From a virus, in the IMG/VR virus record IMGVR_UViG_3300024518_002794, positions 1 through 37,183 of that record: a stretch of 37,183 nt of DNA. One strand, written 5' to 3'. The notes below the pieces were generated by a model, which had not been told where the DNA came from, did not search any database, and was given only the letters and a program-made list of their open reading frames with translations. Positions 3,906-37,183 of the stretch are shown in pieces. Position 1 is the stretch's first letter. Each line of letters opens with the position of its first letter. The position numbers were made by a program, and so were the translations under genes.

Positions 3906-4622
3906 TCACCTCGCGTTGGGCCGCCACCCCTTCAAGGTGTCGACGACCCTCTGCACGCCGCCCCATGATCGAAGACCCCGTGCGAAATCTGCGGCCGACA
4001 TATCGACCGGAGCACGCGGCGCAACTTTCTGGGCGGCGTTGTAAGCATGGATGACGTGGGCCATGCGATTGCTTGGTATCGCGACGAGCGACACTTCCAG
4101 CAATTCGCTCTTGTTGTATACCCACACTTGATCGGCATAGCCCTCGACGTCCTCGTAACCGGCGGCCTTCGAGATGAACCCGATGGAGACCATCGAGAGG
4201 AAACCATTCTGGACCATCCAAAGCGCTTGCCCTGCAATCTTGTTCTTATCCTCGGGCATGAACTCCACGGCGATGTCAAATTTGGAAGAGTCCTGCTCCC
4301 AGTCCAGAACCTTCCCAATGACATGCTCTATGGGGGCTCTGTTATATACGTCGTGGTCCCATCCGAAGATGCGATTAGTGGAGAAAGGGCCGGTGTCGAT
4401 GCCCTCGGTTCGCACGATCGTATGATGACGGTCGAGGTCCGGCGTCGATGCGCGAAACCTCATGACCCGGTTCTCGGGGTCGTCGTCGCCCGACTGCCGG
4501 AGCACGTGACCCATCACAGCGTAGCGCTCCTCGCCCTTGTCGCGATCGTGGTGGATGACATCCGAACGGATCTGGATCCGCTCTTGATTCGCCATGTAGT
4601 CGCTGAAGGATTGCAGACTCAT
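3906..4622 (-). CDS. Prohead protease, HK97 U35 type
   Basis: This serine protease is expected to trim the capsid N-terminal region during head maturation. The ATG at 4622 shares one base with the portal stop (TGATG) and gives 238 residues. A start 30 bases further upstream is open but would overlap the portal gene. Motifs visible are GWDHD with His90, FLSMVSIGF with Ser146 and LLEVSLVAIPSN with Ser178, the pattern of the herpes-assemblin-like prohead protease fold (His and Ser catalytic residues, conserved EVSLV strand). It lies between portal and capsid genes in the classical order. The C-terminal ~40 residues are variable. Confidence 0.9.
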   Translation of the reverse strand: MSLQSFSDYMANQERIQIRSDVIHHDRDKGEERYAVMGHVLRQSGDDDPENRVMRFRASTPDLDRHHTIVRTEGIDTGPFSTNRIFGWDHDVYNRAPIEHVIGKVLDWEQDSSKFDIAVEFMPEDKNKIAGQALWMVQNGFLSMVSIGFISKAAGYEDVEGYADQVWVYNKSELLEVSLVAIPSNRMAHVIHAYNAAQKVAPRAPVDMSAADFARGLRSWGGVQRVVDTLKGWRPNAR

Positions 4623-6928
4623 CAGAGCTTTACCTCGACCGTTAGAGTGCAACGGCAGTTAATGACGTTGGATGCCCGGCCGCGCGGGTCAGACGGCCTG
4701 GCCATTGGTTGCCCGTCGACGATATAGCTATGGGCTCGGGGGATCGTCACGCTGGGCTTGATCGCAGGGGCCCGATGGTGCTTCCGGGTTTCGGCGCTCT
4801 CGATGGGATTCCACGTTTTTAGATACTCAATCCCATAGGCTCGCTCGGACTCGACGACGTGTTCATACTTGCCCGCGTTGACTGCGTTCGCCGTCTCTGT
4901 TCTGGCGATCGTCCGGGCTCGGCCGCCTCGACCCTTGAAGGAGTCCGTCAGCTCTGACAACTCCTTCGCGATGTCCTCGTAAGGCGTCCCGTTCTCGATG
5001 CCGTCGGCGATGATCGGCCGGACCTTCTCGCGGGTCGTCTTCCAGATTCGCTTGATCTTCGTGGCCGAGTTCTTCGCCGCCCATTCGACGGCCTCGGGCC
5101 GGTAGACGTCAAAGGAAAGTTGGAACTCAGCGGCCACTCCGTCGCTCGACAGCAGATCCCAGCCGGAGGCCAGGCTCTTCAGCGCGCTCTCGTTTAGCGT
5201 ATTCCACCAGGCTTCCCGGCTCTTCTGCAGAGCGCTGGCTAGCAGGTCGTCCTCGACGCCCTTGTTGATGGTCCGCACTTCGAGATAGGCGCGCAGCCCT
5301 GCCAGGATCGTCTTCAGGTCCTGGACGAAGAGAGCCGAAATCTGCCGGGTCAGCTCGTTCTCCAGGCTCTCCTGCGTCCGTGCGAACGTCATGCCAGAAA
5401 TCAGATGTTGCTCGGGCGAGAGCCTCGACTCCCAGGGGCCGTCGTCGCTTGACGTGCTGCGAGTCTCGCCAGGCGGCAGCGCCAGGGGCTCGGGCTCGCT
5501 CATGGCCAGCCGCATCTGGGCTTCGAACTGTTCGGCCGCGCTCAGCTGGATGGATAGTCTGGGGATCCCGACTCCGCCCTGTGCGTTGTCGAGCAGGCTC
5601 TGCGGCACTCCCAACTGGGCGCGGCCTTCGTCATCGTCGCTCTGGAAGGGCGTTGCCGCAAGCGGGTCATACTCGCCCAGCGTCTTTGAGTAGCGGACGC
5701 CAGCGGGCAGCATGTAGACATCGCCGTCGGGCGTCGTCGCCTCGCCAACGTTGACGCGATGGACGTTGACAGTGATTACGCCATTTCGGAGGTCGCTCGA
5801 AGAGCGCCTGTGGACCGCGTCTTCGTCCTGGACGATCGGGCTCTCGTATCGGAAGACGTAGCCCTCGATGCCGGCATTGGGCAGCAGCCAGTCGTTGACG
5901 GCATCGGCCAGGCGAGAGAGCCTGGGCTGCAGAGCATTTCTATTGTACGCATTTCTGTGCTCGTTCGTGATCGCGAGCGTCCCACCCTTGAGCGCGATCC
6001 CTGCAACGGACGGCGGCACGTGGTAGCACGCGGCCACCTGCTCCATCGACATCTCAGCGAGCGCCGCGAATTCGAGGTCGGAGACGCTCATGGCGAGCTG
6101 TTGATACTTGGATCCCTTGCCCAGGACGGGCGGCCCGAGCCGGGCGCCCATTCCACCACCAACGCGCTCCTGCCAGCGGTTGGAGATCAGCTCCCCGTCG
6201 TCCGGGTCGATGTCCTGCTCGGTGGTGATAAAACCCGAGATCATTCCGTTGTGTTCAAGAACCGTGCCAATATACGCCCTGGCCAGGGTGTCCGTATCCT
6301 GCGCCCAGGCCACGGCCTGGACCGGGCTCATGCCGTCGGTGGTCGGCCGCGCCGGGTGGGGATAGCGAATCTGGTGGATCTGGTCGGCCGGGATCCAGAC
6401 CGGCGTCCCCATCCCCGGAATTGCGATTTTCCAGTCGGCCAGCTTGCCCGAGGCGTCGTACCTGCGATCGACGACCCAATTGGGCGGTATCGCTTGGAAG
6501 CCCGAGGCGTACTGAGCGCCGGCCGGACCGAGGCGCAGCCAGTAGGCCGTGCCCGTCAGGTCTAGGTGCATGATCGAGATCTCGGCCAGCTCGGCCCATG
6601 AGACGCCGCCAGACGGACGAGCGAGAGGTGCCGCTACCGCCAGGGCGGTATCGCTCGTCGTCTCTTTGTCGCCGGCCCAGAGCGACCAGGGGCGGGAGTT
6701 CACGTCCTGGGAGAGCAGGCTGACGAAGCAGTAAATCCAGCCGGCGTACCGGGCTAGCTGCTCGTCTGGGCGGGTCGCCCTGGTGGTGGTGAGACGGCTC
6801 GCCCCGATCTGGATGAGAATCTCGTCATAGTTGAGCGAGCTCCCTCGCCTCGGCTGGGGTAGGGGTGCGGCTCTTACCTGCCTGGTGCCTATGCGACGGA
6901 TCGACGTTCCCGCAGCGGCTGCGCGCAA
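4622..6928 (-). CDS. Portal protein fused to a MuF/SPP1 gp7-like head morphogenesis domain
   Basis: At 768 residues this is much longer than an HK97-type portal (about 400-500). Residues ~60-480 are portal-like: LARYAGWIYCFVSLLSQDV near the start, then MSPVQAVAWAQDTDTLARAY, MSMEQVAACYHVPPSVAGI and NALQPRLSRLADAVNDWLL. A linker at ~480-540 is followed by a helical region and, at ~660-768, the MuF signature: RARTIARTETANAVNAG, TRKHHRA, HSYIVDGQPM, and NVINCRCTLTVEV with its CRC cysteines. MuF proteins are minor head proteins normally encoded next to the portal. Here one uninterrupted frame makes both. The start is TTG at 6928, with a G-rich site (GGGGGGTGAG) about 5 bases upstream and 23 bases after the terminase stop. 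Confidence 0.9.
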   Translation of the reverse strand: MRAAAAGTSIRRIGTRQVRAAPLPQPRRGSSLNYDEILIQIGASRLTTTRATRPDEQLARYAGWIYCFVSLLSQDVNSRPWSLWAGDKETTSDTALAVAAPLARPSGGVSWAELAEISIMHLDLTGTAYWLRLGPAGAQYASGFQAIPPNWVVDRRYDASGKLADWKIAIPGMGTPVWIPADQIHQIRYPHPARPTTDGMSPVQAVAWAQDTDTLARAYIGTVLEHNGMISGFITTEQDIDPDDGELISNRWQERVGGGMGARLGPPVLGKGSKYQQLAMSVSDLEFAALAEMSMEQVAACYHVPPSVAGIALKGGTLAITNEHRNAYNRNALQPRLSRLADAVNDWLLPNAGIEGYVFRYESPIVQDEDAVHRRSSSDLRNGVITVNVHRVNVGEATTPDGDVYMLPAGVRYSKTLGEYDPLAATPFQSDDDEGRAQLGVPQSLLDNAQGGVGIPRLSIQLSAAEQFEAQMRLAMSEPEPLALPPGETRSTSSDDGPWESRLSPEQHLISGMTFARTQESLENELTRQISALFVQDLKTILAGLRAYLEVRTINKGVEDDLLASALQKSREAWWNTLNESALKSLASGWDLLSSDGVAAEFQLSFDVYRPEAVEWAAKNSATKIKRIWKTTREKVRPIIADGIENGTPYEDIAKELSELTDSFKGRGGRARTIARTETANAVNAGKYEHVVESERAYGIEYLKTWNPIESAETRKHHRAPAIKPSVTIPRAHSYIVDGQPMARPSDPRGRASNVINCRCTLTVEVKL

Positions 6929-6951: not shown

Positions 6952-8397
6952 CTAGACGAAGATCTGGGCTCTGAGCGCGGGCTTGACCGGGGCATAGGCT
7001 ATCGCGAGGGCGTCCGCATCGTCAAGGGACCGGCCCAGGGAGCGCTTCAGCTTCTCCTTAGGGGTCACGAGGACGGTTTCGGTCTGGCCGTGGGGCCCAT
7101 AGGTGATCGCAGCGAGCTGGGCCGTCAGGTCGTCATCGTCCGGGTCGAGGTCCAGGCAGTCGTCCATGACCTCGGCCAGATGGAAATAACATTCCGTCCT
7201 GTACTTGTAGTATTCCAAGGGCTTCGTGCTGGCCTCGCTGAAGTTCACGAACACCATGGGGTAGCCAGCTTTGCGCATCTCGTCAGCCGGCCCTGCCCCG
7301 ATCCCGATCGAGTCGATTCTGAATTCCTCGGGCCCGATGTAGTCGGCCACCTTCGAGACCTTCTGCCGCAGGTCGGCCAGGTTCATGCGGCGGTATTCCT
7401 TGATCTTCCGGTAGTGCCTCCCTCGCCTGCGACCCAGGACGGACGGGTCGTCTCCCTCCCGGCCCACGTCGAGCGCCAGGATCCCAGCTCCCTCGGGCTC
7501 GACCTTCTTCCGATGGCAGCGCTCGATGAGAGACATGGGAAAGAGCCCGTGCGGGTTGTCGTCCGGAAACTGCCCGAGCACTTTGGCCAGATAGAGCGGG
7601 TTCAACTGGCCCCACTTCTTCCTGACCACATCGACCCAGTCGGGCGTCACCAGCATCGGCCAGGGCAGCTCGGCGTCGCCCATCAGCTCCCGCCAGTTGC
7701 CGGGTTCGCCTGGCTTGATCTCCATAGTCTCTGCAGTGATCCCGAACTCCGTGAAATTCGGAGTGTCGAAAGCGGAGATGTTGAACGAGCCCCCCGCGTT
7801 CTGGTGCTCGCGGCCGAACTCGGAGACGGGGTCCGTCGGGTTACCTATTTTCAATAACCGGCAGGTGCGCGGATTATGCAGGCAGCCGATGAGGCCATCG
7901 ATCACATCGTCCGCCATGCCACATGCCTCGTCCAGGATCACCAGCACGTTGCCCGCGTGCCATCCTGTCGCGGCCGTCACGTTATAGTCCGAGGACGCGA
8001 AGCCCAGGGCAAACCACTTTTCGTCAAACGAGCGGCCCATGTCCCATCGGGTCAGCAGTGGCTTGCTACCGATCGGGACCTTCCGGCGCAGCTTCGCAGC
8101 GGCCACCCGGATCTCCTGCCAGAGGATCGACCGGACCTGCCGCCCAGTCGGTGCGGTGGTGATGACGATGCAGTCGGGCCCGAAGGCGAGGAGAAACCAG
8201 ATTGCAGCTCGGGCTGCGATGTAGCTTTTCCCCGCGGCATGGCAGCTGGCGACGCTCGTTATGTAATTGTCGCGGAGGCTCTCCAGGATTTCAGACTGCT
8301 TCGCCCATGGTGTTTCGTCGAGCATGTCGGTCAGCAGAAAGGTCGGGTCCGCTGCCAGTCGATCCGCTACCGCCGAATATGCCGAGGAGACACTCAC
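6952..8397 (-). CDS. terL: Terminase large subunit (packaging ATPase-nuclease)
   Basis: This 481-residue motor protein pumps DNA through the portal and cuts the concatemer. The ATPase half has a Walker A loop SCHAAGKS (residues 51-58, with Ser where Gly/Ala is usual in the first position) and Walker B VLVILDEA (Asp156, Glu157). A probable coupling motif follows at KIGNPTDP. The RNase H-like nuclease half shows its acidic residues in ILALDVGREGDD (Asp310), RIDSIGIGAGP (Asp362) and SLDDADALAIAY (Asp459/460/462). The start is GTG at 8397. No separate small terminase gene is adjacent. The nearest TerS-like sequence is the N-terminal domain of the fusion at 12325-13104. Confidence 0.96.
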   Translation of the reverse strand: MSVSSAYSAVADRLAADPTFLLTDMLDETPWAKQSEILESLRDNYITSVASCHAAGKSYIAARAAIWFLLAFGPDCIVITTAPTGRQVRSILWQEIRVAAAKLRRKVPIGSKPLLTRWDMGRSFDEKWFALGFASSDYNVTAATGWHAGNVLVILDEACGMADDVIDGLIGCLHNPRTCRLLKIGNPTDPVSEFGREHQNAGGSFNISAFDTPNFTEFGITAETMEIKPGEPGNWRELMGDAELPWPMLVTPDWVDVVRKKWGQLNPLYLAKVLGQFPDDNPHGLFPMSLIERCHRKKVEPEGAGILALDVGREGDDPSVLGRRRGRHYRKIKEYRRMNLADLRQKVSKVADYIGPEEFRIDSIGIGAGPADEMRKAGYPMVFVNFSEASTKPLEYYKYRTECYFHLAEVMDDCLDLDPDDDDLTAQLAAITYGPHGQTETVLVTPKEKLKRSLGRSLDDADALAIAYAPVKPALRAQIFV

Positions 8398-8406
8398 GCC
8401 GGCAGT

Positions 8407-8631
8407 CTAGTGAATCGTTGGCGGGTCGCCGTCCCGTGTCTGCTTCGGCTTCGGAGGTCTGGGCCTCTCGGGCGCAGCGGGTCGGGGATTCGGAAGCCAG
8501 CCAGGCGTCGCGCTCCTGCGACCCTGCAGCCAATGCACGACCCAGAGCAAGCCGTCCAGCACCGCCAGCTCGAGCTCTCTCACGAAGAAGCCCGCCAGGA
8601 TGGTCAGGCGTGCGCGGCGAGACGTCGCCAT
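8407..8631 (-). CDS. Small hypothetical protein, hydrophobic helix plus Pro-rich tail
   Basis: This 74-residue protein begins MATSRRARLTILAGFFVREL. The ATG at 8631 has a GGGGG stretch about 8 bases upstream and lies 28 bases inside the 3' end of the preceding gene. Residues ~8-36 are hydrophobic (LELAVLDGLLWVVHWL) and could be an amphipathic or membrane helix. The last 35 residues are Pro/Arg/Lys-rich (PERPRPPKPKQ). It lies just upstream of terL, where small lysis or packaging accessory genes occur. No family recognised. Confidence 0.5.
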   Translation of the reverse strand: MATSRRARLTILAGFFVRELELAVLDGLLWVVHWLQGRRSATPGWLPNPRPAAPERPRPPKPKQTRDGDPPTIH

Positions 8632-8798
8632 ATCGGGACCCCCATCCAGCGCAGGAACCACACCGCGAAGGCGAGGAGAACGGCCCACCTGAAGAAGGTG
8701 CCTAGAACCGCACCAACTCGCGTCGCCCAGAATTCCAATAGCGCCTGCTCCCGGCGGCTGAGCACTCCGTCAAGCTTTCGCTGGTCCTCCCGGTTCAT
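8604..8798 (-). CDS. Small single-span membrane protein (holin candidate)
   Basis: These 64 residues contain a charged N-terminal third (NREDQRKLDGVLSRREQ), one clear membrane segment (~33-50, TFFRWAVLLAFAVWFLRW) and a short basic end (RRLAAHA). Size and layout suit a single-span holin or other small inner-membrane protein, but many phage proteins look like this. The start overlaps the upstream stop by 4 bases (ATGA). It sits in a run of small genes between the exported protein at 9320-10600 and terL. Not assigned to a family. Confidence 0.6.
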   Translation of the reverse strand: MNREDQRKLDGVLSRREQALLEFWATRVGAVLGTFFRWAVLLAFAVWFLRWMGVPIWRRLAAHA

Positions 8799-9049
8799 GC
8801 TTCGGGCTCCCCATCCCTGATCGGCGGCATGTCTCCGTTTCGCTTCAGTGTCTCCACCATCTCCTCAAGCGCCTGAATCATGCACGAGCGCTCCGCGTTC
8901 GACACCCATGTGGCCCATCCGCCGGCCCCCTTGCTGAAGCCGAGAAGCGCGAAACACTCTCCCGCCTGGTCGAATATCGGCCCCACTGTCTGGGCGATCG
9001 CTTGGGCTGTTTCCTCAAGTTCGTGCAGCCTCTGCTGATGCTCGTTCAT
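8795..9049 (-). CDS. Small hypothetical acidic protein
   Basis: This 84-residue protein begins MNEHQQRLHELEETAQAIAQ, a likely helix with coiled-coil spacing. It is followed by a hydrophobic turn-rich part (CFALLGFSKGAGGWATWV) and a second helix (MIQALEEMVETLKRNG). Both gene ends overlap neighbours by 4 bases (ATGA), so it is translated in step with them. No signal peptide, membrane span or known domain is seen. Function unknown. Confidence 0.6.
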   Translation of the reverse strand: MNEHQQRLHELEETAQAIAQTVGPIFDQAGECFALLGFSKGAGGWATWVSNAERSCMIQALEEMVETLKRNGDMPPIRDGEPEA

Positions 9050-9303
9050 GACTCCACCGTCGGCGGGTTCTTGCTCCCATACTCGTCGGCCTCAGGCTGC
9101 GACGCAGCAGCGGCCATCGTTGCCATGCGCTGGACGTCGACCTGGAAGTGGCGGCACCACTGGTCCGGCGTGGCAGGTGGCCAGACGGGAACGATCCCGA
9201 TCACCTTGCCCTCTGCGTCAAGCTCCTCGGCGGCATCTGGCGTCCCCCCTCGGCATGTCATGTCCGCAATCTCGCACCACTCGCATATGCTGCAGGCTCT
9301 CAT
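9046..9303 (-). CDS. Small Cys-rich hypothetical protein
   Basis: This 85-residue protein carries three N-terminal cysteines in RACSICEWCEIADMTCRGG, with a fourth at Cys17, spacing that could bind a metal ion (CxxCxxC then C). The middle (GKVIGIVPVWPPATPDQWCRHF) is hydrophobic and the end is Ala/Pro/Glu-rich. The ATG at 9303 has a good AAGGAG site, and the stop overlaps the next gene by 4 bases. It follows the large exported protein gene by 16 bases. Not assigned; a small metal-binding or redox protein is possible. Confidence 0.6.
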   Translation of the reverse strand: MRACSICEWCEIADMTCRGGTPDAAEELDAEGKVIGIVPVWPPATPDQWCRHFQVDVQRMATMAAAASQPEADEYGSKNPPTVES

Positions 9304-9319: not shown

Positions 9320-10600
9320 CTACTGGCCCTGTGGGTCTGGCGTGTTTCGCATGTCCCATGACGCGAACGAGCCAGTGTCGTTGACGGATGCAGACGCCCG
9401 CATCTCGATTACAGTCTTACCCGGGATGGCCGACGGCCATGGCAGCTGCCCGCTAAAGTTGCCAGTACCTGTCGTGACGTTGCCGGATACGAGGACGACC
9501 TGGGTCGCGCCGCCGAATGGTGTCAGGAGCATGTTCACCAGCTGGGACTTCGCTGTGGCTCCCAGGAGCGGGACGATTCCGAAGCGCAACGTCTTGAGAA
9601 GTGCGGTGTAGTTACGCGGCACCATGTAAACCATCATCTCGCTTCGGTTGTAGCCGATGCGGGTGCATCCCCTGATATCGGCCAGCGGGCTGTCGGGGAT
9701 GCCGTCGGCGCCGACGTCCGGGTCGGTGTGGATGTAGACGTTGCCGATTGTGTCCTGCGTTATGACAGAGACACTGTTGACCGCTTCCCAGTCGCCCATA
9801 TCACCGACGAGCGCCGACTCAGTCCCAGAGCCTGCGTTCGCTCCCAGGAAGGTCACCTCCTGCGCTCTGTCGAAATTGGCGTCGAGCCCGTCGACCAACA
9901 CCATGACCGTCACCGCGTCCAGCTCGCTGTCGCTCGATGCATAGAGCGAGATGCCACCGCTCCACCACGGGTAGAGATCGGCAGCGCCCACCTCCGGGCA
10001 GTCCCACACGGTCTCGGTGTCGCCGAGGTCTATCTCAGGATTGAATCCGAATTTATTGATGACGACCACTGGCAGGCCGCCCACGTACACCAGCCCGAGA
10101 GACGCCCTGTCGTCATACGGGATAGAGCGCCAGTCCTCGGGAGGCAGAGCCGTCTCGTGCGCGCGCACCGTGACGGCGGCCACAGAGGCGCCGCCAGGAG
10201 CCGTCACCACCTCGACATAGACCGTGCCGCGTACCATGTTGAGGCACGACAGGCGGCCCGAGATGCCATCGAGCACGATATCCCCGATCGCCTCGCTGCC
10301 CTCCGCGTCCTCGCTGGTCCTGACGGACCGGACCCGCACCCGTGCCCCACTGTCGGCAGTCGATGCTAGGTCGGTATTGAGGCAAGCCTGGCCGTAGTTT
10401 GCGTCGAGCTGGAGTACGGCCGAATTTGAGGCGTCGTCAAACGAGTAGTGCACGGCGTGCTTCGCTGCGATGACAGGGACCGGACCTCCTGCCGCGAGCC
10501 CCGGCAGTGTCCTGAATTGGTTGGCGCCTGGGTCCTGCGCGAGCGAGGGCAGAGCCCAGAGCGCGAGCATCAGCGCCCCGATCGTGGTTGCATTCCTCAT
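9320..10600 (-). CDS. Large Sec-exported or virion-associated protein of unknown function
   Basis: The frame is open further upstream, but the ATG at 10600 is preceded by a very strong site (ACGGAGGAAATC) and gives a textbook signal peptide: MRNATTIGALMLALWALPSLAQ, cleavage predicted after SLA. The mature ~405 residues are beta-rich and acidic. A segment reading GNVYIHTDPDVGADGIPD, then RIGYNRSEMMVYMVPRNYTALLKTL, resembles repeats seen in some environmental phage virion proteins, where a GNVYIGT-like strand is followed by a YxVPxGxTA strand. That likeness is from memory and is weak. The final part (GKTVIEMRASASVNDTG) is again beta. An N-terminal export signal is unusual for a structural protein, so cell-surface or periplasmic action during infection is also possible. 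Confidence 0.75.
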   Translation of the reverse strand: MRNATTIGALMLALWALPSLAQDPGANQFRTLPGLAAGGPVPVIAAKHAVHYSFDDASNSAVLQLDANYGQACLNTDLASTADSGARVRVRSVRTSEDAEGSEAIGDIVLDGISGRLSCLNMVRGTVYVEVVTAPGGASVAAVTVRAHETALPPEDWRSIPYDDRASLGLVYVGGLPVVVINKFGFNPEIDLGDTETVWDCPEVGAADLYPWWSGGISLYASSDSELDAVTVMVLVDGLDANFDRAQEVTFLGANAGSGTESALVGDMGDWEAVNSVSVITQDTIGNVYIHTDPDVGADGIPDSPLADIRGCTRIGYNRSEMMVYMVPRNYTALLKTLRFGIVPLLGATAKSQLVNMLLTPFGGATQVVLVSGNVTTGTGNFSGQLPWPSAIPGKTVIEMRASASVNDTGSFASWDMRNTPDPQGQ

Positions 10601-10659
10601 GATTTCCTCCGTGTTTCCTTTGGTGGATGGGCACGCTTCGGAGGGGTTGGCACAGGATA

Positions 10660-11013: not shown

Positions 11014-11607
11014 TCAATCGTGGTCACAGCGTGGCCCCTTATTCGCTCTCTCGAACACCATCTCGGCAGGCTCCTCGCCAACCCGATCAGCCTTGAATGG
11101 CCTCGGGGTACCCGGTCCTCTGCCGTTGGTGTGGTAGTCGCTCCAGTCTCGGGCATAGAGCCCGGGCCACGGCCCGATGGACTCAATGCAGGTCGGGCAC
11201 GTGACGAGCCTGGGTAGCTGCGTCCATAGCTCAGCGCGCCCATCGTTCCGAATCTCCACCTGGAGTTTGTGGTCGGTCTCGTCCTCGTTCTCGCGTGTGT
11301 CGACCCAGATGCAGACGGCCTGCCCAGGGCGGAGCCGCAGCGTCGGCACTCCGTCGGGGGACTTCTCCCAGAGCAGGCAGGGGATCGACTCGCTCATGTC
11401 GATCTCGATCGTCGGCACAGTCGTTGCGCGCTCCAGCTGGGCCTCCAATTCGGCGATGCGATCCTGCAGCTCCGGGATGAACGTATCGGGCTCAGCCTCC
11501 TCGTATAGCTGCCCCCTGTCCTCGCACTGGCCCTCTTCGCCTGCAATTGGCTTCGTCGTGTCGAACCAAATGCCCTCGGTGCCATCGTACCCGTAACGCC
11601 CTGCCAT
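11014..11607 (-). CDS. Hypothetical protein
   Basis: The ATG at 11607 overlaps the preceding stop (TGATG); a GTG one codon earlier is equally open. The 197 residues contain a short coiled-coil stretch (PELQDRIAELEAQLERA) at ~45-62, then a beta-rich domain (IPCLLWEKSPDGVPTLRLRPGQ, split over strands, and IWVDTRENEDETDHK). A CxxC pair (LVTCPTCIESIG) could bind metal. Length and composition do not match a family known to me. It sits in the accessory gene run between the methyltransferase and the terminase. Confidence 0.6.
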   Translation of the reverse strand: MAGRYGYDGTEGIWFDTTKPIAGEEGQCEDRGQLYEEAEPDTFIPELQDRIAELEAQLERATTVPTIEIDMSESIPCLLWEKSPDGVPTLRLRPGQAVCIWVDTRENEDETDHKLQVEIRNDGRAELWTQLPRLVTCPTCIESIGPWPGLYARDWSDYHTNGRGPGTPRPFKADRVGEEPAEMVFERANKGPRCDHD

Positions 11608-12179
11608 CACTCCCCCTTCCTTCGCGCTGCCTCGTCCCCGAGCACGATCCTCTGGTCACCGGACCTCATCTCGGGCGGCCGATCCGCCGGCCACTCCGGG
11701 TGCTCGACAACGGGGATGCCGAGGAATGTGCGGGGCTCGCCTCGGAGTTGCTCCTCCGTGACCTTCTCGATTGCGTCGTGACACCACTCGACGTATTCGT
11801 CCGGCTCCTTGGGATGCATCGTCGCCCTGCCGTGCACTAGGTCGAAGGTGGGCTCTCGGACTGGCCACGCCCACCGATGCAGCAGCTGTAAGTCCGTGAC
11901 GCGCTCGTTCGGCGGTTCGATTGGAGGCTCGACAATGGGGACCCCGCACATTTCCAGGTTGTGGAATGCCTGGGCCGCCTGCCCTTCCTGCCCCTGCCGA
12001 TGCGCCTCCTCCGGTCCCGTCTCCTCCCAGCTCGGGTGCACCAGGCCATACTTCACCCGGGCCGACTCGATCCGATCCAGGCGACGCTGAGCGCCCCACC
12101 CGACCAGCGCCCAGGCACCAGCAAACGCGAGCGAGGCGAACACCCAGCCGACGCATAGTAGAAGTATTGCCCACGTCAT
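11607..12179 (-). CDS. Membrane-anchored hypothetical protein
   Basis: This 190-residue protein has one strongly hydrophobic N-terminal segment (WAILLLCVGWVFASLAFAGAW, ~3-29) with no clear cleavage site, so it is probably a signal anchor. A soluble, Pro/Glu-rich remainder follows. The segment from ~75 on (EMCGVPIVEPPIEPPNERV) and the closing region (TFLGIPVVEHPEWPADRP) both carry a GVPIVE / GIPVVE-type phrase, suggesting an internal duplication of a short motif. Start and stop overlap both neighbours by 1-4 bases. Located two genes downstream of the M15 peptidase fusion; a lysis-related role is possible but not shown. Confidence 0.6.
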   Translation of the reverse strand: MTWAILLLCVGWVFASLAFAGAWALVGWGAQRRLDRIESARVKYGLVHPSWEETGPEEAHRQGQEGQAAQAFHNLEMCGVPIVEPPIEPPNERVTDLQLLHRWAWPVREPTFDLVHGRATMHPKEPDEYVEWCHDAIEKVTEEQLRGEPRTFLGIPVVEHPEWPADRPPEMRSGDQRIVLGDEAARRKGE

Positions 12180-12328
12180 GATTCATCGTCCCCCTCTTCC
12201 ATGGACTTCCTTTGCGACTCGCGTATCTCCGCCAGATCCTCCTCGAGCGGCTTGACGATGAAGTAGAAGACCACGAAGAAGGCCACGTACGCCCCGATAT
12301 ACGCCGCGCCAAACCAGAGCACGCTCAT
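12176..12328 (-). CDS. Very small single-span membrane protein (holin or spanin candidate)
   Basis: Starting at the ATG at 12328, which overlaps the upstream stop by 4 bases, this gene encodes 50 residues. These are a short N terminus, one membrane helix (LWFGAAYIGAYVAFFVVFYF, ~4-25) and a charged cytoplasm-like or periplasm-like tail (KPLEEDLAEIRESQRKSMEE). It directly follows the M15 peptidase fusion. Together with 11607-12179 this could be the membrane part of a lysis cassette. The tail is helix-forming, as in an inner-membrane spanin, but 50 residues is short. Function inferred only from layout. Confidence 0.6.
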   Translation of the reverse strand: MSVLWFGAAYIGAYVAFFVVFYFIVKPLEEDLAEIRESQRKSMEEGDDES

Positions 12329-13104
12329 GAGTACACCTCGTGTGCCCAGGCGATCACCGCTGGGTCGGCCCAGTCTTCCAGCCACTGCCCGTTGATGGGG
12401 CCGACGGGCAGCCCCTGGTGGTGAAGGTGCGGGCCCGACCCCGTGTCGTGGTAGACCGCCCAGAGCCCCGCAGCCCGCGCGACGGATTCGAGACTCTGGG
12501 CGATCGTGCCTCCCACCTCCGGTATTTCCCCGTCGAACTCCACCCCCAGGTCGTCGGCCATCCCAGGGAAGACGCAATGCTTCGACCCTGGCAGCCCTCC
12601 GACCTTCGCGTTGTAGGCAGGCGACCGATAGCCTCCGACGGCTCGCACGTCGTAGCCTCCGCGCAGGAGCTTATCCATCATGATCGCTTTCGCTTCCAGG
12701 TAGTCGGCAGGGGAGAGCGGCAGCCGCCCATGCTCGTCGGGCTCTCCATAGCTCGCCTCTCTGTGCTCCTCGGGCAGAGGCTTTCCGCCGACGGCTGCTA
12801 TCGCCATCATCTCCCAGCTCGGGCTCTCCAGGCTGAGCTCTGTCTTCGCAGGAAAGAGCCGGTCAGCCATACCCAGAATCAACGTCTGCCTGCCTCGGAG
12901 CGCTTCCTTAATCCAGACTTTGACCAACTGCTCCAGCACTGTTGTGTCGGTCTTCTTGAATGCCTCGGCCAGCTGCCGCCTGACCTCGGCCTCCATCGAT
13001 CGACCCTTGGGCCGTCCGCCAGGGTTTCCACTCTGGCCCCTCTTCCATCGACCCGCCAGCATCTTCGGATGGCGGAGACCCGGGTTATCCTTCCTGTCGG
13101 CCAT
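12325..13104 (-). CDS. Fusion of a TerS-like (DUF5681) DNA-binding domain with an M15 peptidase
   Basis: The ATG at 13104 has a strong ACGGAGG site, giving 259 residues. Residues 19-34 read RWKRGQSGNPGGRPKG, the hallmark of DUF5681 proteins often encoded beside terminases as small-subunit-like DNA-binding proteins. The helical stretch to ~85 ends MADRLFP, like the DRxxG segment of that family. Residues ~150-230 are an M15-type peptidoglycan peptidase: VGGYRSPAYNAKVGG, SKHCVFPGMADDLG (His176, Asp184/185) and PHLHHQG (His226/228), supplying the His-Asp-His zinc site. A two-residue expansion between the first His and the Asp differs from the usual SxHxxGxAxD spacing. It may be both the packaging-initiation protein and the endolysin, or one domain may be vestigial. 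No export signal is seen. Confidence 0.8.
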   Translation of the reverse strand: MADRKDNPGLRHPKMLAGRWKRGQSGNPGGRPKGRSMEAEVRRQLAEAFKKTDTTVLEQLVKVWIKEALRGRQTLILGMADRLFPAKTELSLESPSWEMMAIAAVGGKPLPEEHREASYGEPDEHGRLPLSPADYLEAKAIMMDKLLRGGYDVRAVGGYRSPAYNAKVGGLPGSKHCVFPGMADDLGVEFDGEIPEVGGTIAQSLESVARAAGLWAVYHDTGSGPHLHHQGLPVGPINGQWLEDWADPAVIAWAHEVYS

Positions 13105-13444
13105 GAGCGCCTCCGTGCATTGCGTGGCTGCTGGCTGCGTGTTCTTCAGGCCCCACCCAGTCAGGTCCAAGGTGGGGGGTCACCGACATTCTGCGTGCGG
13201 TTTCGAGCCGGGCCCAGCATCTCCAGATGCGCCTGACGGCAGCCAGGAAGCCGAAGCGGCTCGCTAGAAAGCTCACGCCGGGCTCGGGCGCTCGCGGCCG
13301 CGCCTGTATCATCTCCACGCAGGCGTCCCGCCAGCACCACTCCAGCAGATCCAGCATCGCCGGCCAGTCGTAGCCGCACTCGATCATGTGGTCCCGGATG
13401 GCGCTTTCCCTCTCCCGCTCCAGCGCTCGCTCGTCTTCAGGCAT
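13085..13444 (-). CDS. Hypothetical protein
   Basis: The ATG at 13444 overlaps the 3' end of the methyltransferase by 8 bases, and the stop overlaps the next gene by 20. The 119 residues begin MPEDERALERERESAIRDHM, a charged helix. This is followed by a Trp-rich helical part (DWPAMLDLLEWCWRDAC and IWRCWARLETARR) and a His/Gly-rich end. The upstream extension of the frame was rejected because it is entirely inside the methyltransferase. No family recognised. Confidence 0.55.
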   Translation of the reverse strand: MPEDERALERERESAIRDHMIECGYDWPAMLDLLEWCWRDACVEMIQARPRAPEPGVSFLASRFGFLAAVRRIWRCWARLETARRMSVTPHLGPDWVGPEEHAASSHAMHGGAHGRQEG

Positions 13445-20666: not shown

Positions 20667-22091
20667 ATGACATTGACGGACGGAGAAGGTGTGCGCGTGC
20701 TGGAGCTTCACGTGGAAAACTTCATGGGAATTCGCGTAGCCGATGTGAAGCCGGAGCCCGACGGCCTGGTGGTGGTCGGAGGCGAGAACGGGCAGGGGAA
20801 GACGTCGCTCCTAAATGCGATCGAGTGCGCCCTGCGCGGAAAGGCGTGGCATCCGGGCGAGCCCGTGCGGGCTCTTCAGCGTTGCTCCGATGTGAAGGTG
20901 GACCTCGGGGCGATCACCGTACACCGACGATTCAACGACGACGGGACCATGACGCTCAAGGTCCGCAACATGGACGGCTCGACCCCGTCCAGCCCCCAGG
21001 CCACGCTCGACGGCCTGGCCGGCGCGATCAGCTTCGACCCCCTCGCGTTCTCCCGGCTGAAGCCTGCCGAGCAGGTGGACGACGTGCTGCGGGTGATCGG
21101 CGTCGATACCCGGGCCATGGATGCTGCGATCAAGACCACGTTCGACGAGCGCACGACCCAGAACAGGGAGACGGCCAGGCTCAAGGTGGCCCTCGACTTG
21201 CTGCCGAGCCATGACGACGCCCCGGACGAGCGCGTCGAGGTGGCCGAGCTGATGACGAAGGCCCAGAACGCACGGGACCAAAACGCGGCATTCCAGAAGG
21301 CCCGGGACGCGGCCCACCTGAAGAAGGACGAGGCCGAGCTGGCAGAAAGGCTGGCACAGGAGGCGGCCGCGGACTGTGTTGAGCTCCAGCGAAAGCTGGA
21401 GCTAGCTCGGGTCATACTGAAAGATGCCAACGCCCAGCACGACAGGGCCCAGAGCGCCCAGGCCGCCGAAGAGCGGGTCACTTCTCAGCTGGTGGACTTC
21501 GACCTGGGGCCGCTAGAGCAGGCCGTGCTGGAGTGCGAGGGGCGCAACAGGAAGGTCTTGGAGAACCAGGCGAAGCAGGCAGCGGCGAACGAGCTGAAGC
21601 TGGCTGAGACGCTCTCGGGGCAGCTGACGGACTCGCTAGAAGCGAAGAGGCAGGCCCGGACGGAGGCCATGGCCAGCGCGAGAATGCCCATTGAGGGGCT
21701 CCAGCTGTCCGAGGACGGGCTGCGATTCGGCGGCGCCCCCTTCGCCCAAGCGTCTAGCGCTGAGCGGCTCAGGACGTCCATAGCGATGGGCATGGCCCTT
21801 TCTCCCCAGCTCCGGGTGATGCTGGTGCGAGACGGCGGGATCCTGGACCGCGACGGGATGGCGCTGCTCGAATCGGTGGCCCTGGAGCGTGGCTACCAGG
21901 TATGGATCGAGAGGGTGGGCGACAGCGACCCGGGAGCGCTGGTCCTGCGCGACGGCTTCGTGGTCGGCTCGCCCGAGGAGGCAGAGCGCCTGGCCGGGCA
22001 GGGTGAGTGCCCGAATTGCGGCAACGCTCACACCCCATACAGCTATTGCGGCGACGAGGTCGACGAGCGCGACGAGGAGGGGGACTGGTGA
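20667..22091 (+). CDS. SMC/RecF-like recombination ATPase
   Basis: This 474-residue protein has the split-ATPase design of RecF, RecN and SbcC-type proteins. The N-terminal head carries LHVENFMGI and Walker A GENGQGKTSLLNA (Gly39, Lys45, Thr46). A central helical coiled coil (~170-320) is rich in Ala/Glu/Lys/Gln (DEAELAERLAQEAAADC). The C-terminal head has an ABC-type signature region (SSAERLRTSIAMGMAL) and a Walker B/D-loop like stretch (VMLVRDGGILDRDGMALL). The coiled coil is short compared with SbcC. After the ATPase comes a Cys motif (GECPNCGN then SYCGDE) that may bind zinc. Located next to the exonuclease and annealing genes, it probably helps DNA end processing, and may replace SbcC function. 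Confidence 0.82.
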   Translation: MTLTDGEGVRVLELHVENFMGIRVADVKPEPDGLVVVGGENGQGKTSLLNAIECALRGKAWHPGEPVRALQRCSDVKVDLGAITVHRRFNDDGTMTLKVRNMDGSTPSSPQATLDGLAGAISFDPLAFSRLKPAEQVDDVLRVIGVDTRAMDAAIKTTFDERTTQNRETARLKVALDLLPSHDDAPDERVEVAELMTKAQNARDQNAAFQKARDAAHLKKDEAELAERLAQEAAADCVELQRKLELARVILKDANAQHDRAQSAQAAEERVTSQLVDFDLGPLEQAVLECEGRNRKVLENQAKQAAANELKLAETLSGQLTDSLEAKRQARTEAMASARMPIEGLQLSEDGLRFGGAPFAQASSAERLRTSIAMGMALSPQLRVMLVRDGGILDRDGMALLESVALERGYQVWIERVGDSDPGALVLRDGFVVGSPEEAERLAGQGECPNCGNAHTPYSYCGDEVDERDEEGDW

Positions 22092-36943: not shown

Positions 36944-37183
36944 CGGCGGCGCCCGCCTCTTCGGTTCGCGGTAGCTCTCGTGATCTGGGAAAACTTCTTC
37001 TTCGTCGCTTGGAGCGCTTGCGGCATGAACTCGTGCCCCTGCCAGTGGAGTTTTCGTGCGTAGATCACGTTCGTGCCTGCTCGTGTCCGGATCTTCCGGC
37101 GGATCAAGTGGCGGCCCTCAACCGTGAACTCGATTTTACCGTGTAAGTGGCTGGAGACTACGCGGGGGGGCGGTGCTGGGGTG
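36940..37183 (-). CDS. HK97 gp10-like protein, 3' part (5' part at 307-1)
   Basis: This is the rest of the gene that begins at base 307. The unique part is 36940-37046, after which the frame enters the terminal overlap, where the two copies encode nearly the same residues. It ends KKKFSQITRATANRR followed by a basic RGGRRR tail. In the overlap this copy reads Thr-Pro-Ala-Pro-Pro-Pro where the left copy reads Thr-Pro-Gly-Ala-Pro-Pro, so the ends carry two amino-acid differences and one synonymous change. Confidence 0.78.
   Translation of the reverse strand, partial: TPAPPPRVVSSHLHGKIEFTVEGRHLIRRKIRTRAGTNVIYARKLHWQGHEFMPQALQATKKKFSQITRATANRRGGRRR
37047..37183. repeat. Right copy of the terminal overlap
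   Basis: It repeats bases 1-137, with differences only at 37173, 37175 and 37183 in the last 11 bases. The unique genome is therefore about 37046 bp. The perfect 126-base part is consistent with a k-mer assembly overlap; the tail with mismatches is more like variant reads. Confidence 0.9.

Follow-up and report, generated by a model that had tools for sequence, protein, structure and literature searches.

Can a single phage protein carry both a domain associated with genome packaging and an enzyme that cuts the cell wall and, if so, what would it do? The question is raised by a minus-strand open reading frame of 259 codons (positions 12325..13104) in the genome of an uncultured phage, IMG/VR record IMGVR_UViG_3300024518_002794, in which a DUF5681 domain is followed by an M15-type peptidase. 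A first-pass annotation had called the former half similar to a terminase small subunit (TerS). The window analysed here is the whole record of 37,183 nt, in which most genes lie on the minus strand.

The record carries an exact repeat of approximately 126 bases at both ends (1-126 and 37047-37172), and the contig IMGVR_UViG_3300024520_001032, which is 99.9-100% identical, spans the end junction. The record, designated linear, is thus a circularly permuted or terminally redundant genome and effectively complete at about 37,046 bp, and arguments from the absence of a TerS or an endolysin therefore carry some weight. A database search for relatives of the genome returned only this contig, which overlaps the record and belongs to the same genome. 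On the minus strand, the order is methyltransferase, a 139-aa ORF, the fusion gene, a 50-aa and a 190-aa ORF, several small ORFs, the terminase large subunit (TerL; 6952..8397), and the portal gene. TerL was assigned by phrog_2 (E 3.5e-27) and by tblastn to annotated terminases. The portal is itself part of a second fusion of normally separate functions, as it shares a 768-aa frame with a Mu F-like head morphogenesis domain (4622-6928, minus strand; PF04860 and PF04233; phrog_2662). Between the lysis-like ORFs and TerL lies the gene of a 431-aa protein (9320-10615, minus strand) with the signal-like N-terminus MRNATTIGALMLALWALPSLAQD and a match to phrog_8198 (E 6.5e-16), a family with no function assigned. 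Within this mostly minus-strand genome, a plus-strand gene (20667-22091) encodes a 474-aa AAA/SbcC-like ATPase (PF13476; phrog_1499, E 1.3e-79; function not assigned), in which a TerS match at E 0.076 was discarded as spurious.

The frame of the fusion gene runs from an ATG at 13104 to a stop at 12325-12327 and has zero internal stops. A Shine-Dalgarno sequence GGAGG (13110..13114, minus strand) ends 5 nt before the ATG. GC3 stays between 0.72 and 0.88 along the whole length and GC2 is lowest at about 0.47; this codon-position GC resembles that of the TerL, portal, and methyltransferase genes of the same phage. It gives one coding frame end to end and indicates no frameshift. The gene is a real gene fusion in a single frame, as the first-pass annotation had read it, and all motifs quoted there for the two halves are present in the given order. 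The halves are separated by a linker (residues 89-130; 12715..12840, minus strand) that has no family match in Pfam or PHROGs and holds possible internal starts at M99/M100. A 298-aa ORF overlies the gene in antisense (12340-13236, plus strand); nothing marks it as a gene, and it probably just reflects the GC-rich coding sequence opposite.

The N-terminal half matches DUF5681 (PF18932) at residues 18-88 (12841..13053, minus strand) with 40.8 bits, above the curated cut-off of 27.5 (E 3.4e-10), and reaches E 1.6e-17 against a profile from which the fusion sequence was left out. RWKRGQSGNPGGRPKG occupies residues 19-34, and every column of the invariant motif W-K-x-G-Q-S-G-N-P-x-G-R-P is kept when the protein is aligned with as many as 68 DUF5681 sequences of viral origin. 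Judged by its sequence, this half is beyond doubt a DUF5681 domain; the relationship of residues 19-90 to that family, on which the earlier claim had been made to depend, is borne out. The two halves were modelled separately. The DUF5681 model has three predicted helices (mean pLDDT 72.7), and a search of the PDB with it returned no fold match.

Whether DUF5681 is a small terminase is a separate matter. Its relatives in PHROGs fall into families of unknown function, none of them labelled TerS. The fusion protein matches no TerS-labelled family in Pfam or PHROGs, and the best TerS in PDB searches, 7joq, has an E-value of only 0.21. Gene position gives a different picture: a large ORF directly follows DUF5681 in 38 of the 70 viral loci with enough sequence, and phrog_2 alone accounts for 34 of the 66 large downstream ORFs, with others matching further TerL families. 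The label "TerS-like" is thus partly supported, with gene position in other phages speaking for it and neither family nor structure matches doing so. In the reverse direction, DUF5681 accompanies just 3 of 80 relatives of our TerL, and the nearest of these relatives mostly lack it. Among the 398 proteobacterial genomes sampled, approximately 10% also carry the domain, and there it often belongs to a protein that exceeds the viral ones in length. Given this presence in proteobacterial chromosomes, DUF5681 may be a more general domain that many phages use as TerS.

The C-terminal half contains an M15/LAS-type zinc peptidase core at approximately residues 131-232 (12409..12714, minus strand), recognised by motifs, profiles, and weak structure matches, nearly all of which are to M15 peptidases. 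The motifs VGGYRSPAYN, SKHCVFPGMADDLG, and PHLHHQG are present, and the assignment rests on GYRSPAYN, SxHx4GxAxD, and GPHxH. Residues 158-185 align without gaps to the GYRSPAYN..GG..SxH stretch of M15_3 relatives, apart from a two-residue insertion before GxAxD. Accordingly, the proposed metal-binding motif SKHCVFPGMADD (12550..12585, minus strand; H176 and D185), deduced from alignments to M15_3 relatives and to a protein of phage BUCT598, is two residues longer than usual. GPHLHH (12418..12435, minus strand) provides the LAS-type HxH motif (H226 and H228) and corresponds to GPHIH of the BUCT598 protein. The ligand order H...D...(H)xH is complete with H176, D185, and H226-x-H228, which is the LAS-type set.

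Profile scores for this half are lower. Pfam M15_3 gives 15.9 bits (E 0.014), below its cut-off of 23.2, and the PHROG endolysin family phrog_894 gives E 0.008. An M15 profile that excludes the peptidase half gives it 35 bits, compared with about 4 bits or less for the shuffled copies listed, and a PDB search with the M15 family profile recovers 1LBU (E 8.7e-11). However, GYRSPAYN had largely guided the choice of the M15 sequences, and when this peptide is masked the score of the peptidase half falls to noise, so that the profile score is not independent proof. Modelling of this half gave a partial structure (mean pLDDT 58.9) that is unreliable in the HxH region, where pLDDT stays below 50. 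Among viral structures, the top matches that carry a name are M15 peptidases, with probabilities of 0.96-0.99 and E-values of 0.007-0.08, which are not significant; in the PDB list, PLY500, LysB4, LdcB, and 1LBU reach Z 4-5, values that unrelated folds share. The complete motif set nevertheless upholds the M15 zinc peptidase proposed in the first-pass annotation, although M15_3 falls below its cut-off, and we consider the C-terminal half very probably an M15/LAS peptidase.

Both ORFs directly downstream of the fusion gene are predicted by hydropathy to encode membrane proteins, and both are joined by ATGA overlaps. The 50-aa ORF (12176..12328, minus strand) has a single transmembrane (TM) segment and is a holin candidate; the 190-aa ORF (11607..12179, minus strand) has an N-terminal TM segment and is a holin or spanin candidate. 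Neither matches a holin family, and the 190-aa ORF matches no family at all. The fusion protein has a hydrophilic N-terminus without signal sequence, which together with the adjacent TM ORFs fits an endolysin released by a holin. In one proteobacterial genome, holin-like and Rz-like ORFs flank a stand-alone M15 relative. It had been claimed that the phage shows no other TerS and no other endolysin. Among the ORFs scanned with Pfam and PHROGs, which include part of the small ORFs, none of either kind was found, and for these ORFs the claim holds at the sensitivity of the profiles; TerS genes, however, often escape recognition. A further holin candidate, a 64-aa ORF with one TM segment (8604-8798, minus strand), lies just upstream of TerL and forms a series of 4-nt overlaps with the upstream ORFs 8795-9049 and 9046-9303.

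The combination of both domains was found nowhere else in the collections covered. The full-length protein has no relatives by tblastn in phages and plasmids or by peptide patterns in viral contigs, and a gapped DUF5681...GYRS pattern gave nine matches in IMG/VR and GTDB contigs, none of which is a true in-frame fusion. No peptidase is fused to DUF5681 in any of 80 viral loci, none of the 80 TerL relatives is accompanied by such a fusion, and in the 398 proteobacterial genomes either half was matched, never both. The long proteobacterial DUF5681 frames contain no peptidase in the 12 loci fetched. The search for the same domain pair, as suggested earlier, thus gave no second case in the phages, plasmids, IMG/VR and GTDB contigs, and 398 genomes covered; rarity is to be read as a lower-bound statement. 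The fusion is a real, rare architecture built from known parts.

As the main reading we propose, with a probability of about 0.5, a single protein of two domains, late and cytoplasmic, with the peptidase half as endolysin and a TerS-like DUF5681 half. The peptidase half, having no signal sequence, would wait in the cytoplasm until the membrane protein or proteins encoded directly downstream, with overlapping start and stop codons, let it out. The DUF5681 half would most likely bind phage DNA and/or oligomerise as a small-terminase-like subunit; that it still recognises DNA is our inference. TerS and endolysin both accumulate late in the cytoplasm, and they remain there until holin triggering. 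The fusion is therefore mechanically tolerable and less paradoxical than first thought, and the earlier remark that the two activities act at different times was overstated. Taken by parts, a service of the peptidase half as phage endolysin is rather likely, a TerS-like role of the DUF5681 half is tentative and falls a little short of even odds, and the presence of both roles in the same chain is somewhat unlikely. A truly bifunctional protein, in which the TerS-like half selects and packages the genome and the peptidase half lyses the host, possibly from one regulatory pool, is doubtful; as an example of such a pool, rings engaged in packaging could retain the endolysin until the heads are full. 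Should both halves be functional, one molecule would unite packaging and lysis, the final two cytoplasmic steps of infection, and the coordination of lysis with head filling would become directly testable. If the peptidase alone works, the domain arrangement is still unusual for an endolysin, as is the spacing of the M15 active site.

The alternative that survives best is a pure endolysin, in which DUF5681 is what remains after a deletion that fused two genes, or else aids folding or oligomerisation, and the TerS is encoded among the small ORFs at 8604-9303. It agrees with the tight linkage of the gene to the TM ORFs, with its distance from TerL (3.9 kb upstream on the same strand, with about eight ORFs between), with the several small unassigned ORFs that precede TerL, and with the lack of DUF5681 near most close TerL relatives. 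The DUF5681 motif is, however, fully conserved, with no decay in invariant residues or codon usage, and we regard this explanation as unlikely, if credible. Two products from one gene could likewise separate packaging and lysis after translation, either as the full-length protein plus a 160-aa peptidase started at M99/M100 or by proteolysis within the linker. The ATGATG at codons 99-100 follows a GGGAG and stands just before the linker and peptidase, but only 3 nt separate GGGAG from ATG100, no good site lies ahead of M142/M143, and no protease site was identified, which makes this quite improbable.

Slightly less probable again is a virion-associated lysin for entry, which the DUF5681 half would target into the particle via the packaging motor or the DNA. 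By motif, the peptidase half comes nearest to the N-terminus of a large protein in the virions of phages BUCT598 and SB1, and virions of Salmonella phage STGO-35-1 were found to contain a DUF5681 protein (PMC8954984); the fusion gene, however, lies outside the head and tail block and is coupled to the TM ORFs. An assembly artefact joining two genes is very improbable: the junction is known from one contig, as the overlapping contig does not include the site, yet the join is in frame with uniform codon statistics, 4-nt overlaps downstream, and a strong Shine-Dalgarno sequence.

Compared with known systems, the fusion shares its N-terminal domain with stand-alone phage DUF5681 proteins, including WKxGQSGNPxGRPK and the A-x-x-G..DR helix. 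These proteins are unfused and continue for 70-150 aa after the motif (150 residues or fewer to the stop in 80 of 80 viral loci), whereas here a peptidase follows; their genes commonly lie just upstream of TerL, unlike the fusion gene. With Peptidase_M15_3, 1LBU (the Zn D-Ala-D-Ala carboxypeptidase of S. albus G), and phage M15 endolysins, it has in common the order and spacing of GYRSxxxN...GG..SxH...GxAxD, but it differs by the two-residue insertion in SxHxxGxAxD, by HxH in place of HxD, by the absence of the usual N-terminal module, and by its score below the Pfam cut-off. The insertion in SxHx4GxAxD and GPHxH recur at the N-terminus of the virion proteins of Stenotrophomonas phage BUCT598 and Xanthomonas phage SB1, which were reached by tblastn and then aligned to the peptidase half. 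There an M15/LAS-like domain opens an internal virion protein of about 1300 aa (our loci L280 and L281, in both from 1414 onward) that is annotated as transglycosylase and, unlike the fusion, lacks DUF5681. Arthrobacter phages of clusters AM and AU resemble our phage, with its putative endolysin gene, in having the endolysin gene upstream of the terminase and a reported fusion of normally separate functions (PMC5513430); in their case the joined parts are capsid and maturation protease, rather than packaging and lysis.
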